Shown here piece by piece: positions 25,152 through 49,433 of a stretch of DNA of 52,773 nt. The notes under the pieces were generated by a model. That model was not told the DNA's origin, ran no database searches, and was given only the letters and a program-made list of their open reading frames with translations. The translations under genes were made by a program, and so were the position numbers. The DNA comes from Ruminococcus sp. (GTDB lineage Bacteria; Bacillota; Clostridia; Oscillospirales; Acutalibacteraceae), in the NCBI GenBank assembly GCA_017411835.1, contig JAFQPG010000005.1:1-52773 (forward strand), written 5' to 3'. Numbering within the stretch: the first letter of the stretch is position 1; each line of letters starts with the position of its first letter.

Positions 25152-25524
25152 AAAAAGTCCGTTTCATTGCCCAAGTGTTCTTAAGGACACTTGGGCAGTT
25201 TTATTCGCCTTGCGGCGAGTGATATTGCTTTGCAGTGATATTTGAACTTCGTTCAAGTGGTATTGCCTTCGGCAGTTTTTGGCGAATAAAATATCACTGA
25301 AATCGTAAGATTTCAATATCACTTCCCGAAAGGGAAATATCACTCTGTGCGTTTAGTACAGAATATCACGATATAAAAATTACTACCCGAAAAAGAGTTT
25401 TATTTTCTCTTCTTCGGGTAGTTTTGTCTTATACTGTTACGAGCAGGGAATTTGTGTGCCAAATTTCGCTTTTATTAAAGAAAACTGTCCTTAGCAATCC
25501 CGCTCTTTTTGAAACGGACTTTTT
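25152..25524 (-). repeat. Palindrome-rich non-coding element, copy 2 (inverted), nested in a terminator stem
   Basis: The outer arms AAAAAGTCCGTTTC (25152-25165) and GAAACGGACTTTTT (25511-25524) are a perfect 14-bp inverted repeat located between the stops of the convergent ligase and LysR genes. The enclosed 345 bp are the reverse-complement counterpart of 6397-6716: the same CTAAGGACAGTT end, the same ACTACCCGAA hairpin, GTGATATT-spaced small hairpins with different loop sequences, and the same GCCCAAGTGT terminal hairpin. The arms share nothing with the arms of copy 1. This means the element entered the loop of a pre-existing bidirectional terminator. Confidence 0.85.
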
Positions 25525-34552: not shown

Positions 34553-34581
34553 TTGACAAACCTTTTTTTAAGTGCTAAACT
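34553..34581 (+). promoter_or_regulatory. Sigma-A-type promoter of T-box unit 1
   Basis: TTGACA (34553-34558), 17-nt spacer, TAAACT (34576-34581), immediately upstream of the first T-box leader. Confidence 0.8.
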
Positions 34582-34587
34582 TTTAAA

Positions 34588-34866
34588 AAAATAAAAAGGC
34601 TGTGACGAAGACGGCTTAAATATCAGTTTTCAGAGAGTCGGTGGCTGGTGCAAACCGACAACAGGTATTTATTAAAGCCCATCCCTTCTGAGCCGAAGGC
34701 CCGAAAACGAAAGCTAGTAGACGCCTTCCGTGATTGCTGCGTGAATGCATAGGGGTTGTCAGACTCCGAGAGTGGCGGACTTTTTGTCTGCAATTTGAGT
34801 GGTACCGCGAGTGTATTTTACACCCGTCTCAAAGGTTTCTTTGAGACGGGTGTTATTTATTTTATT
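34588..34866 (+). promoter_or_regulatory. T-box leader 1, specifier read as ATC (Ile)
   Basis: Stem I base GGCT (34598-34601) pairs with AGCC (34691-34694). GTGAC and TG form a kink-turn-like bulge, and GAAG (34607-34610) pairs with CTTC (34685-34688). The AGAGAG bulge and GGTGG/TGCAA apical loop motifs follow. The codon just before the lower helix is ATC (34681-34683). The T-box TTGAGTGGTACCGCGA is at 34795-34810; its TGGT pairs with tRNA ending ACCA. The terminator is a perfect 14-bp stem CACCCGTCTCAAAG and CTTTGAGACGGGTG (34821-34852). T-box identity is certain; the codon choice is inferred from alignment with the other two leaders. Confidence 0.9.
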
Positions 34867-34898
34867 ATTTATTATTTTATCCTAAAGGAGGCATCGTT

Positions 34899-37169
34899 AT
34901 GGCACAAGTTGAAACACAAAAACTACTAGAGGTGGCCGTACGAATTAAAGAGATGCGCGAAATCTTCGGCTTTTCACAAGAGGAGATGGCGAAAAGAACT
35001 GAGGTAACAGTTGAGCAATACCGCGATTTTGAATCAGGTAAGCAGGACTTTCCTTTTACATTTATACACAAGTGTTCTTTGGCTTTCGGCATTGGCATTT
35101 CTGATTTGCTCGAGGGTAAAAGTGCACTGCTTTCTTCTTACACCGTAACAAGAAAGGGACAGGGTCAGCAAACAGCTAAAGAGGACGGCATTGAAATTCA
35201 GAACCTTGCTCCTTGGTTTAGAAAGAAAATTTCAGAGCCTTACTTTGTTACATACAAATATTCTAAGGAGCTTCAGGATAAGCCTATCCATTTGACAAAG
35301 CACTCAGGTCAGGAATTTGACTTTGTATTAAAAGGCAGACTTAAAATTCAGGTCGGCGATAATGTTGAATATCTGTCCGAGGGCGACTCTATCTACTACA
35401 ACAGCTCGACTCCTCATGGTATGATTGCTGTTGACGGTGATGAGTGTCAGTTTGTGGCTGTTGTACTTCCTGGCGAAAACGAGTCAGAGGACATCATCCG
35501 TGATACCTTGATGGCTCACAACGAGGTTGCAGATACAAAGCTTTTATGCGAAGAATTTATCAAAACTGAGGTTGACGAAAACGGCTGCTTAAAGGCTATC
35601 GACTTTGAAAATGAAGACAGATATAATTTTGCATTTGATACAGTCGATGCAATCGCTAAAAAGGATCCTGATAAGCTTGCTATGATTCACGTGAGCAGAG
35701 ATCATAAAGAGCGTAGATTTACATTCAACGATATGAAGCGTAAATCTGCACAGGCGGCTAACTACTTTAAGTCACTTGGTATCAAAAAGGGCGACAGAGT
35801 TATGCTCGTTTTAAAGCGCCACTACCAGTTCTGGTTTGCAATTTTAGGTCTGCATAAGCTCGGTGCTATCGCAATTCCTGCGACAAATCAGCTTCAGGCA
35901 CACGACTTTGACTATCGCTTTAATGCAGCGGGTGTAAGTGCTATTTTGTGTACTGCTGACGGTGATGTTTCGCATCAGGTAGATATTGCACAGGAAAAGT
36001 CCCCGACGCTGAAAACTAAAGTGCTTGTCGGCGGTGAGCGTGAGGGTTGGCACAACTTTGACGAGGAGTTTGAGCTTTTCTCTGCGCACTATTACAGAAA
36101 CGAAGATACTCCATGTGGTGATGACCCGATGTTGATGTTCTTTACATCAGGTACAACAGGTTATCCGAAGATTGCACTACATTCTTATAAATATACGCTT
36201 GGTCATTTCATCACTGCTAAGTACTGGCATGGTGTTATGGCTGATGGCGTTCATTTCACAATTTCTGACACCGGTTGGGGTAAGGCGTTGTGGGGTAAGC
36301 TTTACGGTCAGTGGCTTAGTGAAGGCGCAGTATTTACATACGACTTTGACCGCTTTGATGCATCGGATATTCTGCCGATGTTTGCAAAGTATCAGATTAC
36401 TACCTTCTGTGCACCTCCGACTATGCTTAGAATGATGATTAAACAAGATTTGTCAAAATATGATTTTTCTTCTGTTAAGCGTGCTACAACAGCAGGTGAG
36501 GCTTTAAACCCAGAGGTGTATAAGCAGTTTAAAAAGGCAACAGGTCTTAAGCTTAAGGAGGGCTTTGGTCAGACTGAAACTACCCTTTCAATCGCAAACC
36601 TTATCGGCGAGAGCAGTAAGCTTGGCTCTATGGGTAGGCCTGTACCGCTTTATGATGTTCACCTGCTTGATAGCGAGGGCAACGATGTGCCTGATGGTGA
36701 GACGGGCGAAATCTGCATCAAAACTTCTGATAAGGTGCCTTGTGGCTTGTTCCTTGGCTACTATAAAGATGAGGAGAAAACTAAAGAGGTTTACCATGAC
36801 GGTTACTATCACACAGGCGACGTTGCATGGCGTGACGAGGATGGCTTCTTGTGGTATGTAGGTCGAGTTGATGATGTCATCAAGAGCTCAGGCTATCGTA
36901 TCGGACCGTTTGAAATTGAGTCTGTTATCATGGAACTTCCGTATGTTCTCGAGTGCGGTGTATCTGCAGAGCCTGATGAGGTAAGAGGTCAGGTAGTTAA
37001 AGCATCTATCGTGCTCACAAAGGGCACAAAAGAGAGCGAGGACCTCAAAAAAGAAATTCAGAATTATGTCAAATCACGTACAGCTCCGTACAAATATCCG
37101 CGTATCGTAGTATTTAGAGATGACCTGCCAAAAACTATCAGCGGTAAGATTCAGAGAAATAAGCTTTAA
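34899..37169 (+). CDS. XRE-cupin-acyl-CoA synthetase fusion 1 (under Ile T-box)
   Basis: 756 residues in three parts. Residues 8-65 are an XRE helix-turn-helix (RIKEMREIFGFSQEEMAKRTEVTVEQYRDFESGK). Residues about 125-190 are a cupin (HSGQEFDFVLKGRLKIQVGD...GDSIYYNSSTPHGMIAV). Residues about 245-756 are an acyl-CoA synthetase with P-loop FTSGTTGYPK (~415), GFGQTETT, YHTGDVAWRDEDGF and catalytic Lys750 in SGKIQRNKL. The synthetase half resembles medium-chain/branched acyl-CoA synthetases. The XRE-cupin half is the architecture of small-molecule-responsive repressors, so the enzyme may regulate itself or its genes. Context (Ile T-box, VOR, IlvE) suggests 2-methylbutyrate as substrate; that is inference. 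RBS AAAGGAGG. Confidence 0.88.
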   Translation: MAQVETQKLLEVAVRIKEMREIFGFSQEEMAKRTEVTVEQYRDFESGKQDFPFTFIHKCSLAFGIGISDLLEGKSALLSSYTVTRKGQGQQTAKEDGIEIQNLAPWFRKKISEPYFVTYKYSKELQDKPIHLTKHSGQEFDFVLKGRLKIQVGDNVEYLSEGDSIYYNSSTPHGMIAVDGDECQFVAVVLPGENESEDIIRDTLMAHNEVADTKLLCEEFIKTEVDENGCLKAIDFENEDRYNFAFDTVDAIAKKDPDKLAMIHVSRDHKERRFTFNDMKRKSAQAANYFKSLGIKKGDRVMLVLKRHYQFWFAILGLHKLGAIAIPATNQLQAHDFDYRFNAAGVSAILCTADGDVSHQVDIAQEKSPTLKTKVLVGGEREGWHNFDEEFELFSAHYYRNEDTPCGDDPMLMFFTSGTTGYPKIALHSYKYTLGHFITAKYWHGVMADGVHFTISDTGWGKALWGKLYGQWLSEGAVFTYDFDRFDASDILPMFAKYQITTFCAPPTMLRMMIKQDLSKYDFSSVKRATTAGEALNPEVYKQFKKATGLKLKEGFGQTETTLSIANLIGESSKLGSMGRPVPLYDVHLLDSEGNDVPDGETGEICIKTSDKVPCGLFLGYYKDEEKTKEVYHDGYYHTGDVAWRDEDGFLWYVGRVDDVIKSSGYRIGPFEIESVIMELPYVLECGVSAEPDEVRGQVVKASIVLTKGTKESEDLKKEIQNYVKSRTAPYKYPRIVVFRDDLPKTISGKIQRNKL

Positions 37170-37241
37170 TTTGCAGTAAAAAGCATAAAAAATCGGCAAA
37201 AATATGCGCGATTTTGCTTCATTTACTCTAAAGACAAAATA

Positions 37242-37270
37242 TTGACATTTTTCCAAAGTTGTGGTATAGT
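37242..37270 (+). promoter_or_regulatory. Sigma-A-type promoter of T-box unit 2
   Basis: TTGACA (37242-37247), 17-nt spacer, TATAGT (37265-37270). It gives the second ligase and the downstream vor-ilvE genes their own start. Confidence 0.85.
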
Positions 37271-37277
37271 ATTGTAG

Positions 37278-37546
37278 TATTTTTAAAGGCTATGACGAAG
37301 AGTACACATCAGTATGACCTAAAGAGAGGTGGCGGTTGGTGTAAGTCACTGGATACAGCTTTTGTGTTTGTAGCTTCTGAGCCGAGAGGAAGAAAGCTTG
37401 ATTGTTAGTAGAACCTCTCCGTAACTGCTGCGTAAATGCATAGAGGTTGTTAGACCTTGAGAGTGGCGAGAAATCGCAATTTGAGTGGTACCGCGAGTGT
37501 ATTTTACACCCGTCTCAAAGAAAACTTTGGGACGGGTGATTTTTTC
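37278..37546 (+). promoter_or_regulatory. T-box leader 2, specifier read as GTA (Val)
   Basis: Same plan as leader 1. GGCT (37288-37291) pairs with AGCC (37380-37383), and GAAG (37297-37300) pairs with CTTC (37374-37377). The S-turn strand AGTA (37301-37304) is present and CACA pairs with TGTG above it. The codon before the lower helix is GTA (37370-37372) followed by a purine G. The T-box TTGAGTGGTACCGCGA is at 37481-37496 and the terminator CACCCGTCTCAAAG / CTTTGGGACGGGTG at 37507-37538. Strong similarity to leader 1 shows that leader and gene were duplicated together. TTT (Phe) at 37367-37369 is the main alternative codon. Confidence 0.88.
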
Positions 37547-37570
37547 GTCCCCTACAAAAGGAGAATGATT

Positions 37571-39859
37571 ATGCAACAAATGACAGGTCTTGATTACAAG
37601 ATTCAGGAAATGGCTGCCCGTATAAGGGAGCTAAGAGAAATTCAGAATTTAACAGTTGAGCAGATGGCTTTAAAAACCGACGTCACTGTTGAGGAATATA
37701 TCAGCTGTGAAGAGGGTAAAAGCGACTTAAACTTTGCTTTTATCTATCGCTGTGCTATGGCTCTTTCTGTCAATGTTACTGACATTATCGAGGGTTACTC
37801 TCCAAACCTTAAGAGCTACTCAGTCACCAGAGCAGGACTCGGACAAAAGGTTGCTCAAGCACATGGTATGACATACTACAACTTAGCTTATGCGTTCCAA
37901 AACCGTATCGCAGAGCCGCTTTATGTTCGTTCTGTCTACGACGAGAATGCTCAGAACAATGACATCGAGCTTACTACCCACGAGGGTCAGGAACTTGACA
38001 TCGTTGTTGAAGGTAATCTTATGGTACAGGTTGGCGAGCATAAGGAGATTTTAGGTCCGGGAGACTCTATCTACTTTGACTCTGATAAGCCTCACGGTAT
38101 GATTGCTGTAAACGGCAAGGACTGTATCTTCTACGCTATCGTACTTAACCCAACCGGCGAGCCTATTCCGGAGCTTTCAAGTGGCAAGCTTGTTGAAATC
38201 AAGCAGAGCCCTAGAAAGCACGAAAGCGACCGTATATACAAAAACTACGTTGATGTTGAAGAAAACGAAAAGGGAACGCCAACATCTATCAAATTTAAAA
38301 ATACAGATAAATTTAACTTTGCGTTTGATTTGGTTGATGCACTTGCTGATAAAAAGCCTGATAAGCTTGCAATGCTTCATATCTCAAAAGACCACACAGA
38401 ACGCAGATTTACTTTTAAAGATATTAAAAAAGCATCTAACCAGTGCGCTAACTACTTTAAGTCACTCGGCATTAAAAAGGGTGACAGAGTTATGCTTATC
38501 TTAAAGCGTCATTATCAGTTCTGGTTTGCTATGATGGGTCTTAACAAGCTCGGTGCTATTGCTATTCCTGCACCTAACCAGTTGCAGGCTCACGACCTTG
38601 AGTATCGCTTAAAGAGTGCGGGCATTAACACCGTTATCTGTACTGCTGACGGCGATGTGTCACATCAGGTTGATATAGCAGCGAGTGGTTACGACGGACT
38701 TTTAAATAAGCTTCTTGTTAACGGCGAGCGTGAGGGCTGGCGTACATTTGATGATGAATATACCTTGTATTCAACTCATTATAATAGAACTGATGATGCT
38801 CCTTGTGGTGATGACTTGATGCTGATGTACTTCACATCAGGCACATCAGGCTATCCTAAGATTGCCGCACATAACTACAAATATCCGCTTGGACATTTCC
38901 ATACAGCAAAATACTGGCACAATGTTGACCCTGACGGTCTGCACTACACTATTTCCGACACCGGTTGGGCAAAGGCTATGTGGGGTAAGCTCTACGGTCA
39001 GTGGCTGTGCGAGGCGGCTATCTTCGTTTACGACTTTGACCGCTTTGATGCAGCAGACATTTTGCCGATGTTTGCAAAATATCAGATTACTACCTTCTGC
39101 GCACCACCTACAATGCTTCGAATGATGGTTAAGCAGGATATTTCAAACTACGACTTCTCCTCAGTTCAGCATATGACAACAGCAGGCGAGGCTTTAAACC
39201 CTGAGGTTTATCGTCAGTTTGAAAAGGCTACAGGTCTTCAGATTATCGAGGGCTTTGGTCAGACAGAAAGTACAATGATTGTTGGTAATATGACAGGCGC
39301 TAAGCATAAGATTGGTTCTATGGGTAAGCCTGCTCCTATATATGACGTACAGCTTGTAGATGCTGACGGCAACGAAGTTCCTGATGGTGAGCCGGGCGAG
39401 ATTGTTGTAAATCTTAAAAACGGTCACCCTTGCGGTTTGTTTGTCGGCTACTACGGCGATAAAGAGAAAACCGACGAGGTTATGGTCGACGGCATTTATC
39501 ATACAGGCGACGTTGCGTGGCGTGATGAGGACGGCTTCTTCTTCTATGAAGGTCGTGTCGATGACGTTATCAAGAGCTCAGGCTACCGTATCGGACCATT
39601 TGAGATTGAGTCTGTTATTATGGAGCTTCCTTACGTGCTCGAGTGCGGTGTTTCTGCTGCACCTGATGAGGTAAGAGGACAGATTGTAAAAGCATCAATC
39701 GTTCTTACAAAGGGCACTAAAGGTAGCGATGACCTCAAAAAGGAAATCCAGACTTACGTTAAGTCCCGTACAGCTCCGTATAAATACCCACGACTGGTTG
39801 TATTCAGAGATGAGCTTCCAAAGACAGTAAGCGGAAAAATCCAGAGAAACAAGCTTTAA
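37571..39859 (+). CDS. XRE-cupin-acyl-CoA synthetase fusion 2 (under Val T-box)
   Basis: 762 residues from ATG at 37571, 7 nt after AAAAGGAG; the frame is open further upstream only through the T-box terminator. It is a paralogue of fusion 1 over its whole length: XRE domain (RIRELREIQNLTVEQMALKTDVTVEEYISCEEGK), cupin (THEGQELDIVVEGNLMVQVG...GDSIYFDSDKPHGMIAV), and acyl-CoA synthetase with P-loop YFTSGTSGYPK, GFGQTEST, YHTGDVAWRDEDGFFFY and catalytic Lys in SGKIQRNKL. The C-terminal half is nearly identical to fusion 1, while the XRE and cupin parts are more diverged, as expected if they sense different ligands. Its position 4 nt before the vor operon and the Val specifier suggest isobutyrate as substrate (inference). 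Confidence 0.88.
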   Translation: MQQMTGLDYKIQEMAARIRELREIQNLTVEQMALKTDVTVEEYISCEEGKSDLNFAFIYRCAMALSVNVTDIIEGYSPNLKSYSVTRAGLGQKVAQAHGMTYYNLAYAFQNRIAEPLYVRSVYDENAQNNDIELTTHEGQELDIVVEGNLMVQVGEHKEILGPGDSIYFDSDKPHGMIAVNGKDCIFYAIVLNPTGEPIPELSSGKLVEIKQSPRKHESDRIYKNYVDVEENEKGTPTSIKFKNTDKFNFAFDLVDALADKKPDKLAMLHISKDHTERRFTFKDIKKASNQCANYFKSLGIKKGDRVMLILKRHYQFWFAMMGLNKLGAIAIPAPNQLQAHDLEYRLKSAGINTVICTADGDVSHQVDIAASGYDGLLNKLLVNGEREGWRTFDDEYTLYSTHYNRTDDAPCGDDLMLMYFTSGTSGYPKIAAHNYKYPLGHFHTAKYWHNVDPDGLHYTISDTGWAKAMWGKLYGQWLCEAAIFVYDFDRFDAADILPMFAKYQITTFCAPPTMLRMMVKQDISNYDFSSVQHMTTAGEALNPEVYRQFEKATGLQIIEGFGQTESTMIVGNMTGAKHKIGSMGKPAPIYDVQLVDADGNEVPDGEPGEIVVNLKNGHPCGLFVGYYGDKEKTDEVMVDGIYHTGDVAWRDEDGFFFYEGRVDDVIKSSGYRIGPFEIESVIMELPYVLECGVSAAPDEVRGQIVKASIVLTKGTKGSDDLKKEIQTYVKSRTAPYKYPRLVVFRDELPKTVSGKIQRNKL

Positions 39860-39863
39860 TATT

Positions 39864-40529
39864 ATGAAAGATTTTAAGAGAATTACACTGCTTTGCGGAC
39901 ATTACGGCTCCGGCAAAACAAACGTCGCGGTTAATATGGCACTGATGCTTAAAAAACAGCGCGACAATGTTGCGATTGCCGACCTTGATATTGTTAACCC
40001 GTATTTTCGCACTAAGGACAGCAGTAAAGAATTTGAAAATTGCGGTATAAGACTTATCGCATCAAGCTTTGCAAACTCTAACGTCGATATTCCTGCACTA
40101 CCGCAGGATATGTACGCTATCACCGATGATAAAGCTTTGTCGGTTATCATAGACGTCGGCGGTGACGACAGAGGAGCACTTGCTCTTGGCAGATTAGCAC
40201 CACAGATTGTAGAAGAAAATGACTACGAAATGCTGATGGTCATAAACTGCTATCGTCCGCTAACTCGTGATGCGTTGTCGACTATCGAGGTTATGCGCGA
40301 GATAGAGTACGCAGGACATATTAAGTTCACAGGACTTGTGAACAACTCAAACTTAGGTGTTATGACAACACCTGATGACGTGATTTCTTCACTTAGCTAC
40401 GCTGATGAAGTATCAAAGCTTAGTAATCTTCCTGTAGTATGCACTACAGTAGAAAAAAGTTTATATAATGACTTGAGCGACAAGATTGAAAATCTCTTGC
40501 CACTGAGTCTTCAGGCTAGACCTGTATAA
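39864..40529 (+). CDS. P-loop ATPase (CobQ/ParA-like) of the vor operon
   Basis: 221 residues. The N-terminal Walker A variant GHYGSGKTNVAVNMA (about 11-25) and DLDIVNPYFRT (Walker B/switch-like) place it in the SIMIBI class near ParA/CobQ-type ATPases. IDVGGDDRGALALG is a second conserved stretch. It lacks the double-Lys KGG signature of true ParA. It starts 4 nt after ligase 2 and precedes the ferredoxin subunit, so it is part of the operon. SIMIBI ATPases often act in cofactor or Fe-S assembly, so a role in maturing the oxidoreductase is possible but not shown. Confidence 0.75.
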   Translation: MKDFKRITLLCGHYGSGKTNVAVNMALMLKKQRDNVAIADLDIVNPYFRTKDSSKEFENCGIRLIASSFANSNVDIPALPQDMYAITDDKALSVIIDVGGDDRGALALGRLAPQIVEENDYEMLMVINCYRPLTRDALSTIEVMREIEYAGHIKFTGLVNNSNLGVMTTPDDVISSLSYADEVSKLSNLPVVCTTVEKSLYNDLSDKIENLLPLSLQARPV

Positions 40530-40559
40530 GACAAAGCCTAAGGAAAGGGAGAGTTTTTT

Positions 40560-40766
40560 ATGGCTAAACTAACATTTAAAACAGACAACTGCAAGGGTTG
40601 CGGACTTTGCGTAGAAGCTTGTCCTAAAAACTTGCTTATCCTTGCAAAAGACGAAATCAACAAAAAGGGTCATCACCCTGCAGTCATTACTGACGAGAGT
40701 GCTTGTATTGGTTGTGCTTTTTGTGCAACAATGTGCCCTGACTGTGTAATCAAGGTAGAGAGGTGA
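40560..40766 (+). CDS. 2-oxoacid:ferredoxin oxidoreductase delta subunit, 2[4Fe-4S] ferredoxin
   Basis: 68 residues with two complete cluster motifs, CKGCGLCVEACPKN and CIGCAFCATMCPDC. It carries electrons between the thiamine site of the beta subunit and external ferredoxin. As a separate small polypeptide it marks the four-subunit (Vor/Kor) architecture rather than the fused pyruvate enzyme. It has a strong GGAAAGGGAGAG site and lies 4 nt before the alpha subunit gene. Confidence 0.93.
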   Translation: MAKLTFKTDNCKGCGLCVEACPKNLLILAKDEINKKGHHPAVITDESACIGCAFCATMCPDCVIKVER

Positions 40767-40770
40767 GATT

Positions 40771-41838
40771 ATGGCAGATAAAGTTTTGATGAAAGGTAAC
40801 GAGGCTATTGCTGAGGCTGCGATTTTAGCAGGCTGCAGACATTACTTCGGTTATCCTATTACTCCACAGACAGAAATCGCGGCTTATATGGCTAAGAAAA
40901 TGCCTAAAATCGGCGGTTGCTTCTTACAGGCTGAAAGCGAAATCGCTGCTATCAATATGGTTTACGGTGTTGCATCAACCGGTAAGCGAGTTATGACATC
41001 ATCATCTTCCCCTGGTATTTCTCTAAAGGGCGAAGGACTTTCTTATATGGCAGGTTCAGATTTGCCTGCACTCGTTGTAAACGTACAGCGTGGCGGTCCT
41101 GGTCTTGGCGGTATCCAGCCTAGCCAGTCTGACTATTTCCAGGCTACAAAGGGTGGCGCACACGGCGACTTCCATATGATTGTTTTAGCTCCTGCATCAG
41201 TTCAGGAAATGGCTGAGCTTACAGTAAAAGGCTTTGAGCTTGCTGATAAATACAGAATGACTTCTATGATTTTAGCTGATGGTACTATGGGTCAGATGAT
41301 GGAACCTGTAGAGCTCGACTTTGACGTTAAAGAGCGTCCTGCTACTCCTTGGGCTACAACAGGCACAAAGATGGAGCGTGAGCACAACATCGTAAACTCA
41401 TTGTCACTCGTTGCTGAAGAACTCGAACGACTCAATTTTGAGCGTTACGAGCGTTATAAGGCTGTTGAAGAAAATGAAGCAATGTACGAGGAATTTATGA
41501 CTGAGGATGCTGACATTATCGTAGCGGCATTTGGTATTGCTTCTCGTGTTTCTAAAAACGCTATCGTTGAAGCAAGAAAGCAGGGCATCAAGGCTGGTCT
41601 TATTCGTCCTATCACCTTATGGCCATTCCCTAAGGCTCCTTTTGAGAAGGCTGCAAAAACCGCAAAGGCATTTATCAGCGTTGAGCTTTCTATGGGTCAG
41701 ATGATTGAAGACGTAAAACTTGCAACAGGATGCAAAGTTCCTGTTACTTTATGTAATCGCGCAGGTGGTATGATTCCATCCCCTGAGCAGGTATTAGAGG
41801 CTATTATTGAGGCTGACAAATTAGGAGGTGCAAAATAA
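40771..41838 (+). CDS. vorB: Branched-chain 2-oxoacid:ferredoxin oxidoreductase alpha subunit
   Basis: 355 residues. It begins MADKVLMKGNEAIAEAAILAGCRHYFGYPITPQTEI, the pattern of the VorB (2-ketoisovalerate) group, and continues with SSSSPGISLKGEGLSYMAGSDLPALVVNVQRGGPGLGG and a C-terminal domain II (IVAAFGIASRVSKNA). With the beta, gamma and delta subunits it interconverts a 2-oxoacid plus CoA with acyl-CoA, CO2 and reduced ferredoxin. The reaction is reversible, and beside acyl-CoA synthetases and IlvE it could run as reductive carboxylation. The stop and the beta start overlap (TAATG). Substrate preference is inferred from the family and context. Confidence 0.9.
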   Translation: MADKVLMKGNEAIAEAAILAGCRHYFGYPITPQTEIAAYMAKKMPKIGGCFLQAESEIAAINMVYGVASTGKRVMTSSSSPGISLKGEGLSYMAGSDLPALVVNVQRGGPGLGGIQPSQSDYFQATKGGAHGDFHMIVLAPASVQEMAELTVKGFELADKYRMTSMILADGTMGQMMEPVELDFDVKERPATPWATTGTKMEREHNIVNSLSLVAEELERLNFERYERYKAVEENEAMYEEFMTEDADIIVAAFGIASRVSKNAIVEARKQGIKAGLIRPITLWPFPKAPFEKAAKTAKAFISVELSMGQMIEDVKLATGCKVPVTLCNRAGGMIPSPEQVLEAIIEADKLGGAK

Positions 41839-42593
41839 TGGTAGTATTTGATAAACCACATGCTTTAGCAGATGTGCCTATGCACTATTGCCCTGGTTGT
41901 TTACATGGCGTAGTTCATCGCCTTGTTGCTGAGGTTATTGACGAATTAGGTATTGAGGGCAGAACTATCGGTATTGCACCGGTTGGTTGTTCAGTTATGG
42001 CATATAACTACTTTAACTGCGATATGATTGAAGCAGCGCACGGTCGTGCTCCGGCAGTTGCTACAGGTGTTAAGCGTTCAGACCCTGAAAACAACATTGT
42101 ATTTACATATCAGGGTGACGGCGACCTCGCATCTATCGGTATGGCAGAAACAGTACATTCTGCCGCTAGAAATGAAAATATCACAGTTATCTTTATCAAT
42201 AACGCAATTTACGGTATGACAGGCGGTCAGATGGCACCTACATCACTTCCTGGTCAGGTTACACAGACTTCTCCATACGGCAGAGACGTTAACCATTGCG
42301 GTTATCCTATCAGAGTATGCGAGATGCTAAGTGAGCTTGAAGGTCCTGAGTATTTAGAGCGTGTTACCGTAAACAATGTTAAAAACATCAAAAACGCTAA
42401 AAAGGCTATCAAAAAGGCTTTCCAGAACCAGATTGACGGCAAAGGCTTCTCACTTGTTGAGGTTGTATCTTCTTGTCCTACAAACTGGGGTATGACTCCT
42501 GTTGATGCACTTAAGTGGATTGACGATAATATGCTTCCATATTATCCACTCGGCGTTTATAAAGACAGATCAGCAAGTAAGGAGGAAGCATAA
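41838..42593 (+). CDS. 2-oxoacid:ferredoxin oxidoreductase beta subunit (TPP-binding)
   Basis: 251 residues. The [4Fe-4S]/TPP region begins HYCPGCLHGVVHRLV. The thiamine diphosphate/Mg motif is YQGDGDLASIGMAE...NENITVIFINNAIYGMTGGQ (GDG plus N-N-x-x-Y-G-M-T-G), as in Kor/Vor beta subunits. It holds the catalytic thiamine diphosphate that forms the hydroxyalkyl intermediate. One-base TAATG overlaps at both ends with alpha and gamma genes point to coupled translation and fixed stoichiometry. Confidence 0.93.
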   Translation: MVVFDKPHALADVPMHYCPGCLHGVVHRLVAEVIDELGIEGRTIGIAPVGCSVMAYNYFNCDMIEAAHGRAPAVATGVKRSDPENNIVFTYQGDGDLASIGMAETVHSAARNENITVIFINNAIYGMTGGQMAPTSLPGQVTQTSPYGRDVNHCGYPIRVCEMLSELEGPEYLERVTVNNVKNIKNAKKAIKKAFQNQIDGKGFSLVEVVSSCPTNWGMTPVDALKWIDDNMLPYYPLGVYKDRSASKEEA

Positions 42594-43126
42594 TGGCTAG
42601 TACACAGTTTTTATTCTCCGGCTTTGGCGGTCAGGGTATTTTGTTCGCAGGCAAGTTTATTGCTTACAAAGGCTTAACTGAGGATAAGCAGGTAAGTTGG
42701 CTTCCATCTTACGGTCCTGAAATGCGTGGCGGTACAGCGTCTTGTTCAGTTATCGTTTCTGACGAGCCTGTAGGTTCACCGATTGTATCTAATCCTGATG
42801 TTTTAGTTGCACTTAATCTTCCGTCTTTAGACCGTTTTGAAAAAGATGTTAAGCCGGGCGGCTACATTTTCTGCGATTCTACACTTATAGAGCGCAAGGT
42901 TGAGCGTACTGACGTAAAGGTTTTCTACATTCCTGCAACAGGCTTAGCTTCTGAAAACGGTATCCCTACTTTAGCTAATATGATAGTTATGGGTAAGATG
43001 CTCAAAGAGCTTGGCGATTACTCACAGGAAGGTATTGAAAACGGACTTAAAAAGGTTATCTCTGCAAAGCGTGCAGATATGATGGGCTTAAACTTCAAAG
43101 CACTTGAGCTCGGTGCAAACAGCTGA
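42593..43126 (+). CDS. 2-oxoacid:ferredoxin oxidoreductase gamma subunit
   Basis: 177 residues. It opens with FSGFGGQGILFAGKFIA, the standard gamma-subunit motif, and continues with WLPSYGPEMRGGTASCSVIVSD and DVLVALNLPSLDRF. It contributes the CoA-binding part of the enzyme. It completes the delta-alpha-beta-gamma set; ilvE follows after 34 nt, and no terminator lies between them. Confidence 0.93.
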   Translation: MASTQFLFSGFGGQGILFAGKFIAYKGLTEDKQVSWLPSYGPEMRGGTASCSVIVSDEPVGSPIVSNPDVLVALNLPSLDRFEKDVKPGGYIFCDSTLIERKVERTDVKVFYIPATGLASENGIPTLANMIVMGKMLKELGDYSQEGIENGLKKVISAKRADMMGLNFKALELGANS

Positions 43127-43160
43127 TTTAACACATACATTATTTAAGAAGGTGTTTTAA

Positions 43161-44222
43161 TTGAATATCACAATTACAAAAACAACTGCCAAAAAAGCAA
43201 AGCCTGACGAAAGCGCTTTAGGTTTTGGTAAGATTTTTACAGACCATATGTTTATGATGGACTACAGCAGAGAAAAGGGCTGGTATGATGCAAGAATCGT
43301 ACCGTTTGAGAATCTTTCTATCCACCCTGCTTCTACTGTACTCCACTATGGTTCAGAGATTTTTGAGGGTTTAAAAGCATACAGAAAGGCTGATGGTTCA
43401 GTACAGCTTTTCAGACCTATCGAGAATATCCGTCGTATGAACCGCTCTGCAGAGCGTCTTTGTCTGCCACAGCTTGACGAAAACGATGCACTCGAAGCAC
43501 TCCTTAAATTCGTTGAGGTTGAGCAGGACTGGACTCCACATTCTGAAGGTACATCACTGTATCTTAGACCATTTATGTTTGGTAACGACGAGAGTTTAGG
43601 TGTACACGCTGTACATAATGCTACATATGTTATCATCGCTTCTCCTGTTGGTTCTTACTACGCAGAGGGCATCAATCCGGTTAAAATTATGATTGAGGAC
43701 GAAGATGTTCGTGCGGTACGTGGCGGTACAGGTTACGCTAAATGCGGCGGTAACTATGCGGCTTCTAACCGCGCAGGCGAGCGTGCAGAGAAAAAGGGTT
43801 ATTCACAGGTACTTTGGCTTGACGGCGTAGAAAGAAAGTACATCGAGGAAGTTGGCGCGATGAACGTTATGTTCAAGATAAACGGCGAAATCGTTACTCC
43901 GATGCTTTCAGGCTCAATACTCCCTGGTATCACCCGTATGAGCTGTTTAGAGGTATTACGCAAAGAGGGCTATAAAGTTTCTGAGCGTTTGCTCTCTATC
44001 GATGAGCTCGAAGAAGCTATGGAAAACGGCACACTCGAAGAAGCATGGGGCTGCGGTACAGCGGCTGTTATTTCACCAATCGGCGAGCTTTGCTACAAAG
44101 GCAAGAAGTACGCTGTAAACAATGGCGAAATCGGCGAGACTACACAGTATCTGTATGATACTCTCACAGGTATCCAGTGGGGCAAGATAGAGGATACATT
44201 CGGCTGGACAGTACAACTTTAA
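43161..44222 (+). CDS. ilvE: Branched-chain amino acid aminotransferase
   Basis: 353 residues from a TTG start that has AAGAAGGTG 6 nt upstream; no better ATG exists. It is a class IV PLP aminotransferase of the longer (~350-residue) type: FGKIFTDHMFMMDY, LHYGSEIFEGLKAYR, RGGTGYAKCGGNYAASNRA with the PLP Lys in YAKCGGNYAAS/SQVLWLDGVERKYIEEVGAMNVMF, and GSILPGITRMS. It interconverts Val, Leu and Ile with their 2-oxoacids. At the end of the vor operon under the Val T-box it would carry out the last step of a reductive-carboxylation route. No ilvBN, ilvC or ilvD genes are in the window. A strong terminator follows. Confidence 0.95.
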   Translation: MNITITKTTAKKAKPDESALGFGKIFTDHMFMMDYSREKGWYDARIVPFENLSIHPASTVLHYGSEIFEGLKAYRKADGSVQLFRPIENIRRMNRSAERLCLPQLDENDALEALLKFVEVEQDWTPHSEGTSLYLRPFMFGNDESLGVHAVHNATYVIIASPVGSYYAEGINPVKIMIEDEDVRAVRGGTGYAKCGGNYAASNRAGERAEKKGYSQVLWLDGVERKYIEEVGAMNVMFKINGEIVTPMLSGSILPGITRMSCLEVLRKEGYKVSERLLSIDELEEAMENGTLEEAWGCGTAAVISPIGELCYKGKKYAVNNGEIGETTQYLYDTLTGIQWGKIEDTFGWTVQL

Positions 44223-44244
44223 TCGCCACTTAATAAAGTGAATC

Positions 44245-44273
44245 AAAAAGGCTCTCGTATGAGAGCCTTTTTT
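44245..44273 (+). terminator. Terminator of the ligase 2-vor-ilvE operon
   Basis: AAAAAGGCTCTC (44245-44256) and GAGAGCCTTTTTT (44261-44273) with a 4-nt GTAT loop. Confidence 0.93.
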
Positions 44274-44353
44274 GTTTGTTGGTATTATCTACAAATACTT
44301 TTGCATAATATGTAAGTAATAATAGTAAAAGTGAAAAAATTGAGCGTTATTTG

Positions 44354-44382
44354 TTGACATCTCAAATTCATTGTGCTATATT
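44354..44382 (+). promoter_or_regulatory. Sigma-A-type promoter of T-box unit 3
   Basis: TTGACA (44354-44359), 17-nt spacer, TATATT (44377-44382). Confidence 0.85.
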
Positions 44383-44389
44383 GGTAACA

Positions 44390-44652
44390 ATCTTTTTAAA
44401 TGCGATGAAGAAATTATTTTTCGTCCATAGTTTTTTTCAGAGAGTCGCTGGGTGGTGCAAAGCGATAAAAACGGATGAAAAAGTCTCATTTTGGAGCAGA
44501 ACTGCTGAAATTATTAAGCGGTTACGGCGTGCCCCGTTATCATGGCAAAAGGCTTGTTAGAGCCTTACTGAGTTGGTCGATTTTTCGGCAAACAGGGTGG
44601 TACCGCGATACTTTCGTCCCTGAGGCTTTAGCCTTAGGGGCTTTTTTATTTT
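44390..44652 (+). promoter_or_regulatory. T-box leader 3, specifier read as CTC (Leu)
   Basis: Upper stem TTTTTCGTCC pairs with GGATGAAAAA, and the AGAGAG bulge and GGTGG/TGCAA apex lie within 44440-44460. TGC (44401 region) pairs with GCA below a GATGA/TGGA kink-turn-like bulge. Aligned with leaders 1 and 2 on the segment before the kink turn, the codon is CTC (44485-44487) followed by purine A. The T-box CAGGGTGGTACCGCGA is at 44593-44608. The terminator is CCCTGAGGC / GCCTTAGGG (44618-44639) plus TTTTTT. GTC (Val) at 44483-44485 is the alternative codon if the internal loop is drawn differently. The LeuA-like gene downstream favours Leu. Confidence 0.85.
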
Positions 44653-44684
44653 ATATATTCTTGAATAAAAAGAGGTAGATTATT

Positions 44685-46064
44685 ATGAAACAAATCAGAA
44701 TTGCAGACACAACATTGTGTAATGAATCAAGTCACTTCAGCTTTAAAGAAAAGCTTGAAATCACAAGACAGCTTGAGCGATTACAGGTTGATGTTATTGA
44801 GCTACCTGAAATTATAAATGAAAAGACAGACATCTTATTTGTAAAAACAGTTGCTTCTTTTGTTAAAAAGAGCGTTATTTCTGTTGCGGCAGGCAGTACT
44901 TTAAAGAGCATTGACGACGCATCAGTTGCTTTGTCTAGTGCAAATCACCCGAGCATCCGTATTGAGCTTCCGCTTTCTCCTGCTTTGATGGAATACGAAT
45001 GTCACAAAAAGCCTGCTAAAATGCTTTCTTACATCAAAGAGTGTATTGAAAAAGCAAAAGGCTACTGCGAAAATGTAGAATTCTGCGCAGTTGATGCAAC
45101 AAGAGCAGAAAAAGATTTCTTAAAAGATGCTATTAAAACTGCTGTTGAAAGTGGTGCTACAAGCATTTCTATCTGTGATTCAGCTTCTTCTATGCTTCCT
45201 GATGATTTTGCTCAGTTTGCACACAAAATCAGCAAAAAGGTTGACGTGAGTGTTGGCGTTAAATGTAATAATAAAAACGGTCTTGCATCTGCACAGGCGA
45301 TTTTGTCTGTAAGAAATGGTGTTGATATCGTAAAAACTACTGTTGACGGCGATTGTGTACCGCTCGAGGTTTTTGCGACTATGATTAAAAACTGTGGCGA
45401 TTCCTACGGCTTTGAGTCAAACATCAGATACACGGAAATGCACAGAATTATTAAGCACATCAACCGCATTGCAGAAAATGCAAACAACGAAAACGCGGCT
45501 GTAACAGTTGCTAACAGCGACGAAAATACTATCCACCTTGATGCAAAAGACACACAAGACGACGTATCTATTGCTGTAAAAATGCTCGGCTACGATTTGA
45601 ACGAAGAAGATCAAGCAAAGGTGTTTGAAGAATTCAAGCGTGTAGCAGAAAAGAAAAACGTTGGCGCAAAAGAGCTTGATGCTATAATTGCGTCGGTAGC
45701 TTTGCAGGTGCCTGCTACCTACAAGCTTGTATCATACGTTATAAACAACGGTAATATCATAAATTCCACCGCCCAGATTACTCTTGAAAAAGACGGCAAG
45801 CAGTTAGAGGGCTTTAGCATCGGCGACGGTCCTGTGGACGCGTCTTTCCTTGCTATTGACCAGATTATCGGTTACCATTACGAGCTTGATGATTTCCAGA
45901 TTCAGTCTGTAACACAGGGTAAAGAGGCTATGGGTTCTGCTTTAGTAAAGCTTAGAAACGGCTCAAAGCTTTACTCAGGCAATGGTATTTCCACCGACAT
46001 TATGGGCGCAAGCATCAAAGCGTACTTAAACGCTGTTAACAAAATTGTCTACGAGGAGGCGTAA
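44685..46064 (+). CDS. LeuA-like pseudoenzyme with 2-isopropylmalate synthase regulatory domain
   Basis: 459 residues. The N-terminal ~320 residues follow the DRE-TIM barrel of 2-isopropylmalate/homocitrate synthases: IADTTLCNESSHF where active enzymes read DTTLRDGEQ, VEFCAVDATRAEKDFL, and VKCNNKNGLASAQA (from Lys193) where they read HCHNDLGLA. Thus the catalytic Arg and the metal-binding His-x-His are lost, and the GERAGN loop is absent. Residues ~342-459 match the LeuA C-terminal leucine-binding dimer domain, including IGDGPVDASFLAID. It is therefore unlikely to condense acyl-CoA with acetyl-CoA. It may be a leucine sensor or scaffold for the following enzymes. It is the first gene after the Leu T-box, 3 nt before the ligase fusion. 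Confidence 0.8.
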   Translation: MKQIRIADTTLCNESSHFSFKEKLEITRQLERLQVDVIELPEIINEKTDILFVKTVASFVKKSVISVAAGSTLKSIDDASVALSSANHPSIRIELPLSPALMEYECHKKPAKMLSYIKECIEKAKGYCENVEFCAVDATRAEKDFLKDAIKTAVESGATSISICDSASSMLPDDFAQFAHKISKKVDVSVGVKCNNKNGLASAQAILSVRNGVDIVKTTVDGDCVPLEVFATMIKNCGDSYGFESNIRYTEMHRIIKHINRIAENANNENAAVTVANSDENTIHLDAKDTQDDVSIAVKMLGYDLNEEDQAKVFEEFKRVAEKKNVGAKELDAIIASVALQVPATYKLVSYVINNGNIINSTAQITLEKDGKQLEGFSIGDGPVDASFLAIDQIIGYHYELDDFQIQSVTQGKEAMGSALVKLRNGSKLYSGNGISTDIMGASIKAYLNAVNKIVYEEA

Positions 46065-46066
46065 GG

Positions 46067-48592
46067 ATGAAACTCTCTTTTTCAACAAAAGGCTGGCATA
46101 ACTGTCAGTTTGAAGAATTTTGTGATGCGGCTAACTATATCGGCTTTAAGGGTATAGAGCTCCACAACATCAATAACCGCCTTTTTACCGATAAGGACGG
46201 TGCTTTCCACGACTACACATCAGCAGCTACACTCAGAAGACTTTTTGAAAAGAAGCTTTCTATCCCTTGTATTGACGTAGTCTCTGATATTGCAAACGAT
46301 AAAACACAAAAAGGCACAATTAACGAAATCGAGCGTTGTATCGAAATCGCTAAAAACCTGCGTATTCCGCACATCCGTCTGCGTGCTTTTGAAACAAAAG
46401 ACAAGGAAAGCGCTATTTCACAGGTTAAGAAAACGATTGATGCAGTAATTGGAAAAGCTGTAGAAAATGATGTCATTTTGCTTATTGAAACATCAGGACT
46501 CTTTGCTGATACAAAGGTGCTCTGTTCTGTGCTCGACAGCTTTGCAAGCGACAATGTAGCGGCATTGTGGCATTTATCTCACGCTTACTTTACCTGCGGC
46601 GAAAAGCCAAGTCAGGTTATCAAAAACCTCGGTGCTTATGTAAAGCACGTACATTTTTCTGATGCAAAAATGGTAAACGGCGAGGTTGAGTACTGCCTTG
46701 CAGGTGAGGGCGAAATGCCTGTTAAAGAAATGATGCTTTCATTAAGCTCTGTAAACTACGACGGTTATATCTCGCTTATCTGGGACCCTGCTTGGTGCGA
46801 AGAACTTAACGATATGGAGATAATTTTTTCACAGTTTAAAGAGTATATGAAGCAGTTTGACGACACTTCAAAGAACAAGAAAACTCTTTACTCAAACAAA
46901 CGTCACACAGGCAAGTTTGTTTGGAAAAAGGATTTGCTCATTGACGCTACTTTCTCTGATGTTTTAGACAGAATGGTCGAGGAATTCCCTGACCAGTATG
47001 CGTTTAAATATACAACACTCGACTATACAAGAACCTACAGCGAATTTCGTGACGATGTAGATACCTTCGCGCGTGCACTTATTGCTATGGGCGTAAAAGC
47101 GGGCACAAAGGTTGCGGTATGGGCGTCAAACGTACCGCAGTGGTATATCGCTTTTTGGGCTACTACAAAGATTGGTGCAATTTTAGTTACTGTAAATACA
47201 GCGTATAAAATCCACGAAGCAGAATATTTGTTCAGACAGTCTGACACACATACCCTTATTATGACTCAGGGCGCAAAGGATACAAACTACGGCGATATTG
47301 TTGCACAGCTTTGTCCCGAGCTTGAAAACACAAAAGAGGGCGAGCAGGTACACTCAAAGCGTCTGCCGTTTTTAAGAAATGTTATCACAGTCGGCTTTAA
47401 GCAGAAGGGCTGTATGACTTGGAATCAGGCACTTGAATTTGCAAGCAAGGTTCCGCTTTCTGAGGTTCATCGTATGGCGGCTTTAGTTGATAAAGACGAC
47501 GTATGTAATATGCAGTATACATCAGGTACTACGGGCTTTCCTAAGGGCGTTATGCTTACCCATTACAACATCGTAAACGACGGTAAGTGTATCGGCGACA
47601 GAATGGACCTTTCTACTGCTGACAGAATGATGGTACAGGTGCCGATGTTCCATTGCTTTGGTATGGTGCTTGCTATGACTGCTACGATGACTCACGGCGG
47701 TACGCTTTTACCACTGCCTTATTTTTCACCAAAGCCTGCACTGGCGTGTATCAACAACGAGCACATCACGGCATTTCATGGTGTTCCTACGATGTTTATA
47801 GCGTTGCTTGAGCACGAGGATTTTGAAAAAACTGATTTTTCTTATATGCGTACAGGTATTATGGCGGGTTCTCCTTGCCCTATTTCTGTAATGCAGGACG
47901 TTGTAGATAAAATGAATATGAAGGAAATCACCATCGTTTACGGCCAGACAGAGGCTTCTCCTGGATGTACTATGAGCTCAACCGACGACCCGCTCGAGGT
48001 AAGGGTTACTACGGTAGGTCGTGCTCTGCCTGAAATCGAGTGCAGAATTGTTGACCCTGAAACCGGTGAAGATTGTGACGATGAAGTACCGGGTGAGTTT
48101 TTGGCTCGAGGCTACAACATTATGAAGGGCTACTATAAGATGCCTGAAGCAACTGCTGCCGCTATTGATAAAGATGGTTGGTTACACACAGGCGACCTTG
48201 CATGCCGTACAAAAGAGGGCAACTACCGTATTACGGGTCGCTTAAAAGATATGATTATCCGTGGTGGAGAAAATATCTATCCAAAGGAAATCGAAGAGTT
48301 TATTTATACACACGAAAGGGTTTCTGACGTACAGGTTATCGGTGTACCTGACGAGCAGTACGGCGAAGAGATTATGGCTTGCATCATTTTGAAAGATGGC
48401 GAGACTATGACAGAAAAGGAAATGAAGGACTATATCCTTGCTAACATGGCAAGACACAAGGTACCACGTTATGTAGACTTTGTTGATTCTTTCCCTACAA
48501 ATGCCGCAGGTAAGATTATGAAATATAAAATGCGTGAGCAGGCGGTTGAAAAACTGGGCTTGCAAAAGGCAAATAGCGTGGAGACTGCATAA
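46067..48592 (+). CDS. TIM-barrel (sugar isomerase-like)/acyl-CoA synthetase fusion
   Basis: 841 residues. Residues 1-265 form an AP-endonuclease-2/xylose-isomerase-like barrel (MKLSFSTKGWHNCQFEEFCDAANYIGFKGIELHN, IPHIRLRAF, LLIETSGLF, HVHFSDAKM, YISLIWDPAW), with some but not all usual metal ligands. Residues ~285-841 are an acyl-CoA synthetase: P-loop YTSGTTGFPKG (~484-494), YGQTEASPG, TGDLACRTKEGNYRITGRLKDMIIRGGENIYPKEIEEF and catalytic Lys in NAAGKIMKYK. This half is of the fatty-acyl/FadD type, not close to the two XRE-cupin ligases. The barrel's role is unknown. Under a Leu T-box, isovalerate is the attractive acyl substrate (inference). Confidence 0.87.
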   Translation: MKLSFSTKGWHNCQFEEFCDAANYIGFKGIELHNINNRLFTDKDGAFHDYTSAATLRRLFEKKLSIPCIDVVSDIANDKTQKGTINEIERCIEIAKNLRIPHIRLRAFETKDKESAISQVKKTIDAVIGKAVENDVILLIETSGLFADTKVLCSVLDSFASDNVAALWHLSHAYFTCGEKPSQVIKNLGAYVKHVHFSDAKMVNGEVEYCLAGEGEMPVKEMMLSLSSVNYDGYISLIWDPAWCEELNDMEIIFSQFKEYMKQFDDTSKNKKTLYSNKRHTGKFVWKKDLLIDATFSDVLDRMVEEFPDQYAFKYTTLDYTRTYSEFRDDVDTFARALIAMGVKAGTKVAVWASNVPQWYIAFWATTKIGAILVTVNTAYKIHEAEYLFRQSDTHTLIMTQGAKDTNYGDIVAQLCPELENTKEGEQVHSKRLPFLRNVITVGFKQKGCMTWNQALEFASKVPLSEVHRMAALVDKDDVCNMQYTSGTTGFPKGVMLTHYNIVNDGKCIGDRMDLSTADRMMVQVPMFHCFGMVLAMTATMTHGGTLLPLPYFSPKPALACINNEHITAFHGVPTMFIALLEHEDFEKTDFSYMRTGIMAGSPCPISVMQDVVDKMNMKEITIVYGQTEASPGCTMSSTDDPLEVRVTTVGRALPEIECRIVDPETGEDCDDEVPGEFLARGYNIMKGYYKMPEATAAAIDKDGWLHTGDLACRTKEGNYRITGRLKDMIIRGGENIYPKEIEEFIYTHERVSDVQVIGVPDEQYGEEIMACIILKDGETMTEKEMKDYILANMARHKVPRYVDFVDSFPTNAAGKIMKYKMREQAVEKLGLQKANSVETA

Positions 48593-49398
48593 TGTATAAA
48601 AATTACACTGTTATAGATTCACATTGCCATATTTATCCTGAAAAAATTGCGAGCAAGGCTGTCGGCGGTACTGACCGTTTTTATGACATTGTGTCAAAAT
48701 GCGAGGGCACTATCGAAGACTTGCTAAGCCGTGGTAAAAAGGCAGGCGTTGACCATTTTATTGTTCAGTCGGTTGCAACAACCCCGCATCAGGTAAGGTC
48801 GATAAACGAGTTTATCTCAAAAAGTGTAGAAGAGCACAAAGGCCTTCTTACGGGACTTGGTACTCTACATCCCGACAGCTTAGACCAAAGAGGAGATGTT
48901 GAGCATTTAGTCAGCTTAGGGCTGCAGGGGGTAAAGCTTCATCCTGATATTCAGCAATTTGCGATTGATGATGAAAGATGCCTTAAAATCTACGATTTAT
49001 GCGACGAGTTTAAACTTCCGATACTGATGCATACAGGCGACAACAGGTACGATTACTCTAACCCTAACCGCCTTTTACCGGTGCTTAAAAAGTATAAAAA
49101 TCTTACGGTAATCGGTGCACATTTCGGTGGTTGGTCGATGTGGGAGGATGCGTGCAAAATTTACGCGGGACTACCTAACTTTTATGTAGACTGTAGCTCA
49201 AGCCTTTATGCAATCACACCGCAAGCCGCAAAAAAGGTTGTGCGTACTTACGGCGCACAGCACGTGCTTTTTGCAACGGACTACCCGATGTGGGACCCAA
49301 GCGAGGAAATCGAGCGTTTTATGGCAATCGGTCTGACCGATGAAGAAAATAAAATGATTTTCTCAGAAAACGTCAAGAAACTTTTCAAAATAAAATAA
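48592..49398 (+). CDS. Amidohydrolase-family metal-dependent hydrolase
   Basis: 268 residues with a metallo-dependent hydrolase barrel. The metal-binding DSHCHIYPEKIA is at about 9-20, GVKLHPDIQQF carries the barrel Lys/His, PILMHTGD and VIGAHFGGW supply further His ligands, and FATDYPMWDP carries the catalytic Asp. This is the Amidohydro_2 pattern, which includes hydrolases and decarboxylases such as ACMSD-like enzymes. Its ATG overlaps the stop of the ligase fusion by one base (TAATG), so it belongs to the Leu T-box operon. The substrate is unknown; a decarboxylase or thioester/amide hydrolase role linked to the acyl intermediate is possible. Confidence 0.85.
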   Translation: MYKNYTVIDSHCHIYPEKIASKAVGGTDRFYDIVSKCEGTIEDLLSRGKKAGVDHFIVQSVATTPHQVRSINEFISKSVEEHKGLLTGLGTLHPDSLDQRGDVEHLVSLGLQGVKLHPDIQQFAIDDERCLKIYDLCDEFKLPILMHTGDNRYDYSNPNRLLPVLKKYKNLTVIGAHFGGWSMWEDACKIYAGLPNFYVDCSSSLYAITPQAAKKVVRTYGAQHVLFATDYPMWDPSEEIERFMAIGLTDEENKMIFSENVKKLFKIK

Positions 49399-49403
49399 GC
49401 ATC

Positions 49404-49433
49404 AAAAAAAGCCTCCTTTTTAGGAGGCTTTAA
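49404..49433. terminator. Bidirectional terminator
   Basis: AAAAAAAGCCTCC and GGAGGCTTTAAATTTT with a TTTTTA loop. It ends the Leu T-box operon and the convergent MBL-fold gene. Confidence 0.9.

Follow-up and report, generated by a model that had tools for sequence, protein, structure and literature searches.

A probable branched-acid to amino-acid route under codon-matched T-boxes in a Ruminococcus genome

For gut bacteria that digest fibre, branched short-chain acids act as growth factors. In the rumen, leucine is made from isovalerate, valine from isobutyrate and isoleucine from 2-methylbutyrate, as cited from Allison and co-workers in PMC7356843; according to PMC7709123, the reaction in reverse, with branched acids giving amino acids, had yet to be proven. 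The T-boxes known on branched-chain genes (Rfam family RF00230) control synthetases, transporters and ilv/leu genes. Here we describe a locus in a 52,773-nucleotide stretch of DNA from Ruminococcus sp. (GenBank assembly GCA_017411835.1, contig JAFQPG010000005.1, positions 1 to 52,773; hereafter the window) that probably encodes a complete route from branched acids to amino acids under three codon-matched T-boxes. Its leaders resemble the known ones in their Stem I specifier, T-box bulge, antiterminator/terminator pair and specificity for Ile, Val or Leu, but they precede predicted branched-acid ligases and a 2-oxoisovalerate oxidoreductase (Vor). The proposed chemistry is that of rumen branched-acid carboxylation, which is known as physiology, whereas we propose a regulated gene set. 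As we read it, a known pathway and a known riboswitch are joined in a new, widespread assembly, possibly together with a new leucine sensor.

The source genome is a 1.72 Mb draft in 20 contigs (99% complete). In the window, three successive leaders, each made up of promoter, T-box and terminator, head one unit apiece (Table 1). Unit 1 is a single gene, ACS1, a fusion of a helix-turn-helix (HTH)-cupin part and an acyl-CoA ligase. Unit 2 encodes, in order, an ACS1 paralogue (ACS2), a P-loop protein, a ferredoxin, VorB, VorA, VorC and the aminotransferase IlvE; unit 3 encodes a LeuA-like protein, a TIM-barrel-ligase fusion and an amidohydrolase. We scored the T-boxes with the RF00230 covariance model (gathering score 93 bits; E-values for the 17 kb searched). 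Leader 3 scored above the gathering score (E 2e-25), leader 1 just below it (E 1e-19) and leader 2 below it (E 4e-18). Each leader has a TTGACA-17-TA-rich promoter ahead of it and a terminator hairpin at its end, and on folding, the terminator and antiterminator hairpins overlap, making them mutually exclusive. The specifiers of leaders 1, 2 and 3 are ATC, GTA and CTC. The original prediction, made from the letters alone, of three T-box units in a row with these codons was thus borne out.

The specifiers are conserved in related loci. Across 80 such loci and the window we found 167 strings of the T-box core GGTACCGCG and kept 160; by eye, four of the seven dropped strings (L073, L083, L093, L118) are ilvE coding sequence and the other three (L054, L055, L090) lack T-box features. 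All 56 Ile-type leaders, counting that of the window, carry ATC. The 81 Val-type leaders, the window's included, have GTA (76) or GTC (2), with three outside the pattern that read GTA by eye, and the 23 Leu-type leaders, again with the window, have CTC in 19 cases and, in four outside the pattern, three CTC and one CTG by eye (seven of the 160 specifiers were read this way). Variation within a class is thus synonymous only (GTA/GTC, CTC/CTG; spot-checked on single leaders), as expected if the leaders are read by amino acid. Inspection of the leaders of L052 and L113 gave ATC and GTA, and ATC also stands before ligases of greater distance that belong to other families in the order (L029, L039, L037, L040, L041). 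A T-box core lies within 300 nt upstream of the Val-type ligase in 80 of 80 loci. Records holding the closest relatives of the window's ligases bear the titles Ruminococcus sp., Oscillospiraceae, Clostridia or Eubacteriales; almost all are metagenome-assembled genomes, and many of their titles name ruminant gut samples.

To see whether the locus replaces the de novo genes, we compared 98 genomes, the window's own included, using Fisher tests. Ligase-fusion positives were the genomes in which the top P0002 match reached E <= 1e-240, a threshold set after seeing the table and with Ile- and Val-type ligases pooled (37 of 98; G026, which has fragments and approximately 45%-identical copies with a stop, was not counted, and G074, at 49% with one stop, was). 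Unit-3 positives had a P0004 match of at least 55% over nearly full length (37 of 98, including G061, G070, G075 and G081 with one internal stop and excluding G058, a fragment at a contig end), and leuB was counted when over its curated cut-off. The ligase fusion and ilvC occurred together in four genomes (the window's own, G010, G041 and G073), the fusion alone in 33, ilvC alone in 49 and neither in 12 (p 7.5e-12; within the genus, n=60, p 6e-10; outside it, n=38, p 0.0016). The corresponding counts for ilvD were 4, 33, 45 and 16, and those for the unit-3 fusion against leuB were 6, 31, 56 and 5 (p 1.7e-14). Both the ilvC and the leuB pattern persist within the genus, outside it and in the 63 genomes at least 90% complete. 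The two fusions travel together (33 genomes with both, 4 and 4 with one, 57 with neither). In most relatives that carry them, the ligases largely stand in for ilvC and unit 3 for leuB.

The window's own genome is one of the exceptions. The window itself has no ilvC or ilvD (no family-level search for acetolactate synthase was made there), and the genome has one match to each, both on contig C17. There, tandem T-boxes that read Leu (CTC) and Ile (ATC) by eye (L138, G000:C17:70000-89999, 2258-2696) precede an operon with ilvC, ilvD and leuB, the last over its cut-off, and with ilvA, a second LeuA, leuC, leuD, ilvB and ilvH, named by eye from open reading frames. With this operon, de novo synthesis cannot be called missing from the genome, and the branched-acid route is a second, additional one here. 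The absence of acetolactate-pathway genes noted in the original prediction holds for ilvC and ilvD in the window. The same prediction had named a full ilvBNCD/leuABCD set as part of the evidence that would count against the route, an objection that applies in part, since this genome has such an operon on C17. Of the 37 fusion genomes, 33 have no ilvC. Neither tandem leader is of the Val type, and among the 11 T-box matches of this genome only the one heading unit 2 reads as Val by eye. Other T-boxes of the genome (L139-L144) stand, by eye, before likely cysE/cysS, pheST, thrS, alaS, a transporter with trpB, and aspS/gat.

ACS1 and ACS2, 64-65% identical, both carry the HTH-cupin part N-terminal to the ligase. 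Their best-scoring NCBIfam model is the MbcS equivalog (439 and 431 bits). The best relative of ligase 2 among solved structures is 3ETC (E 6e-183), which we take to be MacsMa of Methanosarcina acetivorans, a reference title in PMC10455477 fitting this identity. MacsMa prefers 2-methylbutyrate and its Trp259 is critical, according to PMC10455477. The aligned Trp, that of the TAKYW motif, is kept in 54/54 Ile-type and 80/80 Val-type ligase rows. In the residue list for the ligase classes (threshold 0.88), the residue right after DTGW separates the two, being Gly in 54/54 Ile-type ligases, as in 3ETC, and Ala in 80/80 Val-type ones; a wider set, which partly duplicates the 80 loci (e.g. L015/L046), gave Gly in 65/65 and Ala in 96/96. 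The equivalent residue of acetyl-CoA synthetase lines the acyl pocket, where a slightly bigger side chain would suit a smaller acid such as isobutyrate. ACS1 and ACS2 share the ligase domain with MacsMa and differ from it in the fused HTH-cupin part, which matches solved structures weakly (best E 9e-4), and, for the Val type, in the Ala. From these sequence features we predict 2-methylbutyrate as the substrate of the unit 1 ligase, isobutyrate for unit 2 and, from its leader and the leuB replacement, isovalerate for unit 3. The original prediction rightly called the three enzymes acyl-CoA synthetases and overlooked the fused HTH-cupin and TIM-barrel domains.

A FastTree built from 161 ligases groups 95 of 96 Val-type sequences in a single clade (support 0.972) inside the Ile-type set. 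The two classes are not both monophyletic, since L028 falls outside the Val clade and the Ile type is paraphyletic around it. Given this nesting, the Val ligase and the Val specifier probably arose from an Ile-type pair. An Ile-type ligase lies upstream of the Val-type one in 55 of 69 loci. In one Bacteroides and one Parabacteroides record (L178, L179), a cupin protein and an AMP-binding ligase are encoded as two adjacent genes, with proline/arginine biosynthesis genes alongside and no annotated Vor within 6 kb.

The remaining genes of unit 2 could complete the route for all three acids. VorB and IlvE exceed their cut-offs (534 bits against a curated 399 for NF005507; 408 against 250 for TIGR01123). 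VorA and VorC match Pfam families and reach no NCBIfam cut-off, and the 68-residue ferredoxin-type subunit matches Fer4 and directly precedes VorB in 61 of 61 loci with VorB. All four Vor subunits are therefore present, and the complete Vor with IlvE that had been read into the middle unit stands. VorB lies within 4 kb downstream of the Val-type ligase, on the same strand, in 48 of the 58 loci with enough sequence. A P-loop NTPase separates the Val-type ligase from the ferredoxin and recurs in the listed Vor-bearing loci.

Unit 3 begins with a gene that the original prediction missed. Its product has HMGL-like and LeuA_dimer domain matches (LeuA_dimer 105.6 bits), as LeuA has. We counted the residues that we take to be the metal ligands and catalytic residues of LeuA (DTTLRDGEQ, E, HxH) in 30 readable homologues, the window's included, with eight true LeuA of relatives as reference. 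The metal Asp is kept in 0/30, the HxH histidines in 1/30 and 0/30 and the catalytic Glu in 1/30, whereas the true LeuA keep all of them (8/8). These losses rule out a working isopropylmalate synthase. Mean identity of 29 homologues to the window's protein is 75.8% in the regulatory domain and 56.2% over residues 1-255; true LeuA, compared with one of them, show the reverse order (45.0% and 63.4%). This pattern, in which the regulatory domain is conserved best, hints that selection acts on the binding of leucine and not on catalysis, and the protein is perhaps a leucine sensor. For the ligase that follows, the highest scores are with PRK12583-type ligases; for ligases 1 and 2 they are with MbcS. 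Across 24 sequences of this fusion, the first ligase motif is identical in all and three more are nearly invariant, and the presumed metal positions of the TIM barrel vary; the barrel matches solved structures weakly (best E 1e-6). The amidohydrolase has four metal motifs in 18/18 sequences and a fifth in at least 15 (all rows shown), and matched one uncharacterised protein, weakly. An amidohydrolase relative also follows VorC at L099 (12206-13015), with no other unit-3 gene in view.

We propose that uncharged tRNA-Ile, -Val or -Leu would bind its own leader and permit read-through of the terminator. Induction of unit 1 would then raise the ligase for 2-methylbutyrate, that of unit 2 the ligase for isobutyrate and that of unit 3 the ligase for isovalerate. 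The ferredoxin-dependent Vor of unit 2 would convert the acyl-CoAs to 2-oxo acids by reductive carboxylation, and IlvE would aminate these; both enzymes would be common to the three arms, with the Leu and Ile arms relying on basal or Val-induced Vor and IlvE. The leaders, specifiers, gene content and order, conservation and replacement pattern are the observed part of this route. The Ile and Val arms, which had been predicted in this form, are well supported by specifiers, homology, the class residue and the ilvC/ilvD replacement; for the Leu arm, the specifier and the leuB replacement agree and the ligase substrate is a prediction.

Several observations weigh against such a route. Two of the three T-boxes fall short of the Rfam gathering score, and ligases 1 and 2 score below the MbcS equivalog cut-off of 850 bits. 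The Ile-type ligase is absent just upstream in 14 of 69 loci, and for 10 of 58 Val-type T-box ligases the 4 kb on the same strand contain no VorB. The window's own genome retains an ilv-leu operon headed by separate T-boxes for Leu and Ile, the fusion and ilvC are both missing from 12 genomes, and the Fisher tests ignore relatedness. tRNA-Val(UAC) is present in the window's assembly, but the 33 tRNA matches there include neither tRNA-Leu(GAG) nor tRNA-Ile(GAU). The Leu(GAG) pattern occurs in 79 of the 98 genomes, the window's own not being one of them, and the Ile(GAU) pattern in only four; ARAGORN confirmed Leu(GAG) in 2/2 loci checked and Ile(GAU), beside a tRNA-Ala, in 1/1. The missing tRNAs probably reflect a gap in the assembly.

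The same genes might instead run as breakdown, turning amino acids into branched acids, reduced ferredoxin and ATP; Vor and IlvE are reversible, and Vor is known from amino-acid fermentation. However, T-boxes turn genes on under amino-acid starvation and AMP-forming ligases consume ATP, which suits synthesis rather than breakdown, and the fusions replace ilvC, ilvD and leuB. We regard breakdown as highly improbable. The ligases could also serve mainly to supply primers for branched membrane lipids, with amino-acid synthesis secondary. In many Firmicutes, the synthesis of branched lipids starts from branched acyl-CoAs, and the Val-type ligases without a nearby VorB would fit such a role. Most loci do have VorB downstream on the same strand, the leaders are specific to amino acids and the de novo genes are lost, making a primary role in lipids highly improbable.

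Unit 3 leaves more room for doubt. It could belong to some other pathway under leucine control, one that uses a new condensation or lyase reaction, leucine being made another way: the amidohydrolase has intact metal motifs and no obvious place in a simple route, and the unit-3 ligase is closest to models other than MbcS. We consider this unlikely, given that unit 3 replaces leuB in relatives and that, with the LeuA-like residues lost and the barrel positions variable while the ligase motifs hardly vary, only the ligase and the amidohydrolase look catalytic. A further reading of these features is offered tentatively, at somewhat less than even confidence. A retired isopropylmalate synthase may have become a leucine sensor, its regulatory domain kept under selection, that feeds the leucine level back on the co-transcribed isovalerate ligase. 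The HTH-cupin and degenerate TIM-barrel parts would be parallel sensors, each activation step would be under RNA (codon) and protein (metabolite) control, and the origin of the Val ligase from the Ile ligase would have involved a joint change of ligase specificity and T-box codon.

As the original prediction had it, we found no described locus that places this route under a T-box trio. Among the open-licence papers listed, none describes T-boxes on these genes, and no LeuA pseudoenzymes turned up; as only open-licence papers were searched, this absence is weak. In the consulted text of the T-box survey PMC2494555, a term search gave no hit for ferredoxin, acyl-CoA, AMP-binding or fatty acid. 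If the route is real, the codon-matched T-box gene set would make branched-acid dependency readable from genomes, point to likely substrates for the three ligases and account for how relatives that lack ilvC, ilvD and leuB might survive. It would also be a natural case of a regulatory codon and a residue of the controlled enzyme changing together, and would offer a candidate leucine sensor built from a former biosynthetic enzyme.

Table 1. Features of the three T-box units in the window.
Feature	Position	Strand	Evidence
Promoter 1 (TTGACA-17-TAAACT)	34553..34581	+	sequence motif
T-box leader 1, specifier AUC (Ile)	34593..34834	+	RF00230 92.8 bits; AUC in 56/56
Terminator hairpin 1	34820..34853	+	-26.5 kcal/mol
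ACS1, HTH-cupin-acyl-CoA ligase fusion, predicted 2-methylbutyrate--CoA ligase	34899..37169	+	domain matches, residue class
Promoter 2	37242..37270	+	TTGACA-17-TA-rich motif
T-box leader 2, specifier GUA (Val)	37283..37520	+	RF00230 87.4 bits; GUA/GUC in 81/81
Terminator hairpin 2	37507..37538	+	-24.1 kcal/mol
ACS2, HTH-cupin-acyl-CoA ligase fusion, predicted isobutyrate--CoA ligase	37571..39859	+	domain matches, 3ETC homology, residue class
P-loop NTPase (CbiA/ParA-like)	39864..40529	+	domain match
2x[4Fe-4S] ferredoxin-type Vor subunit, 68 aa	40560..40766	+	Fer4 match; place before VorB
VorB, 2-oxoisovalerate oxidoreductase subunit	40771..41838	+	NF005507 534 bits, cut-off 399
VorA-type thiamine-diphosphate subunit	41838..42593	+	Pfam family match
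VorC-type gamma subunit	42593..43126	+	Pfam family match
IlvE branched-chain aminotransferase (TTG start set mechanically)	43161..44222	+	TIGR01123 408 bits, over cut-off
Promoter 3	44354..44382	+	TTGACA-17-TA-rich motif
T-box leader 3, specifier CUC (Leu)	44396..44624	+	RF00230 115.7 bits; CUC/CUG in 23/23
Terminator hairpin 3	44616..44641	+	-20.6 kcal/mol
LeuA-like protein with leucine-regulatory dimer domain and without the catalytic residues	44685..46064	+	domain matches, residue counts
TIM-barrel (AP_endonuc_2)-acyl-CoA ligase fusion, predicted isovalerate--CoA ligase	46067..48592	+	domain matches
Amidohydrolase (Amidohydro_2), metal motifs intact	48592..49398	+	domain match, motif conservation

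Elsewhere in the window, an open reading frame of 883 residues (29035-31686, minus strand) has no Pfam match at E 0.001, and positions 25196-25268 (plus strand) match the Gut-1 RNA (RF01706) at 51.5 bits, against a gathering score of 50.

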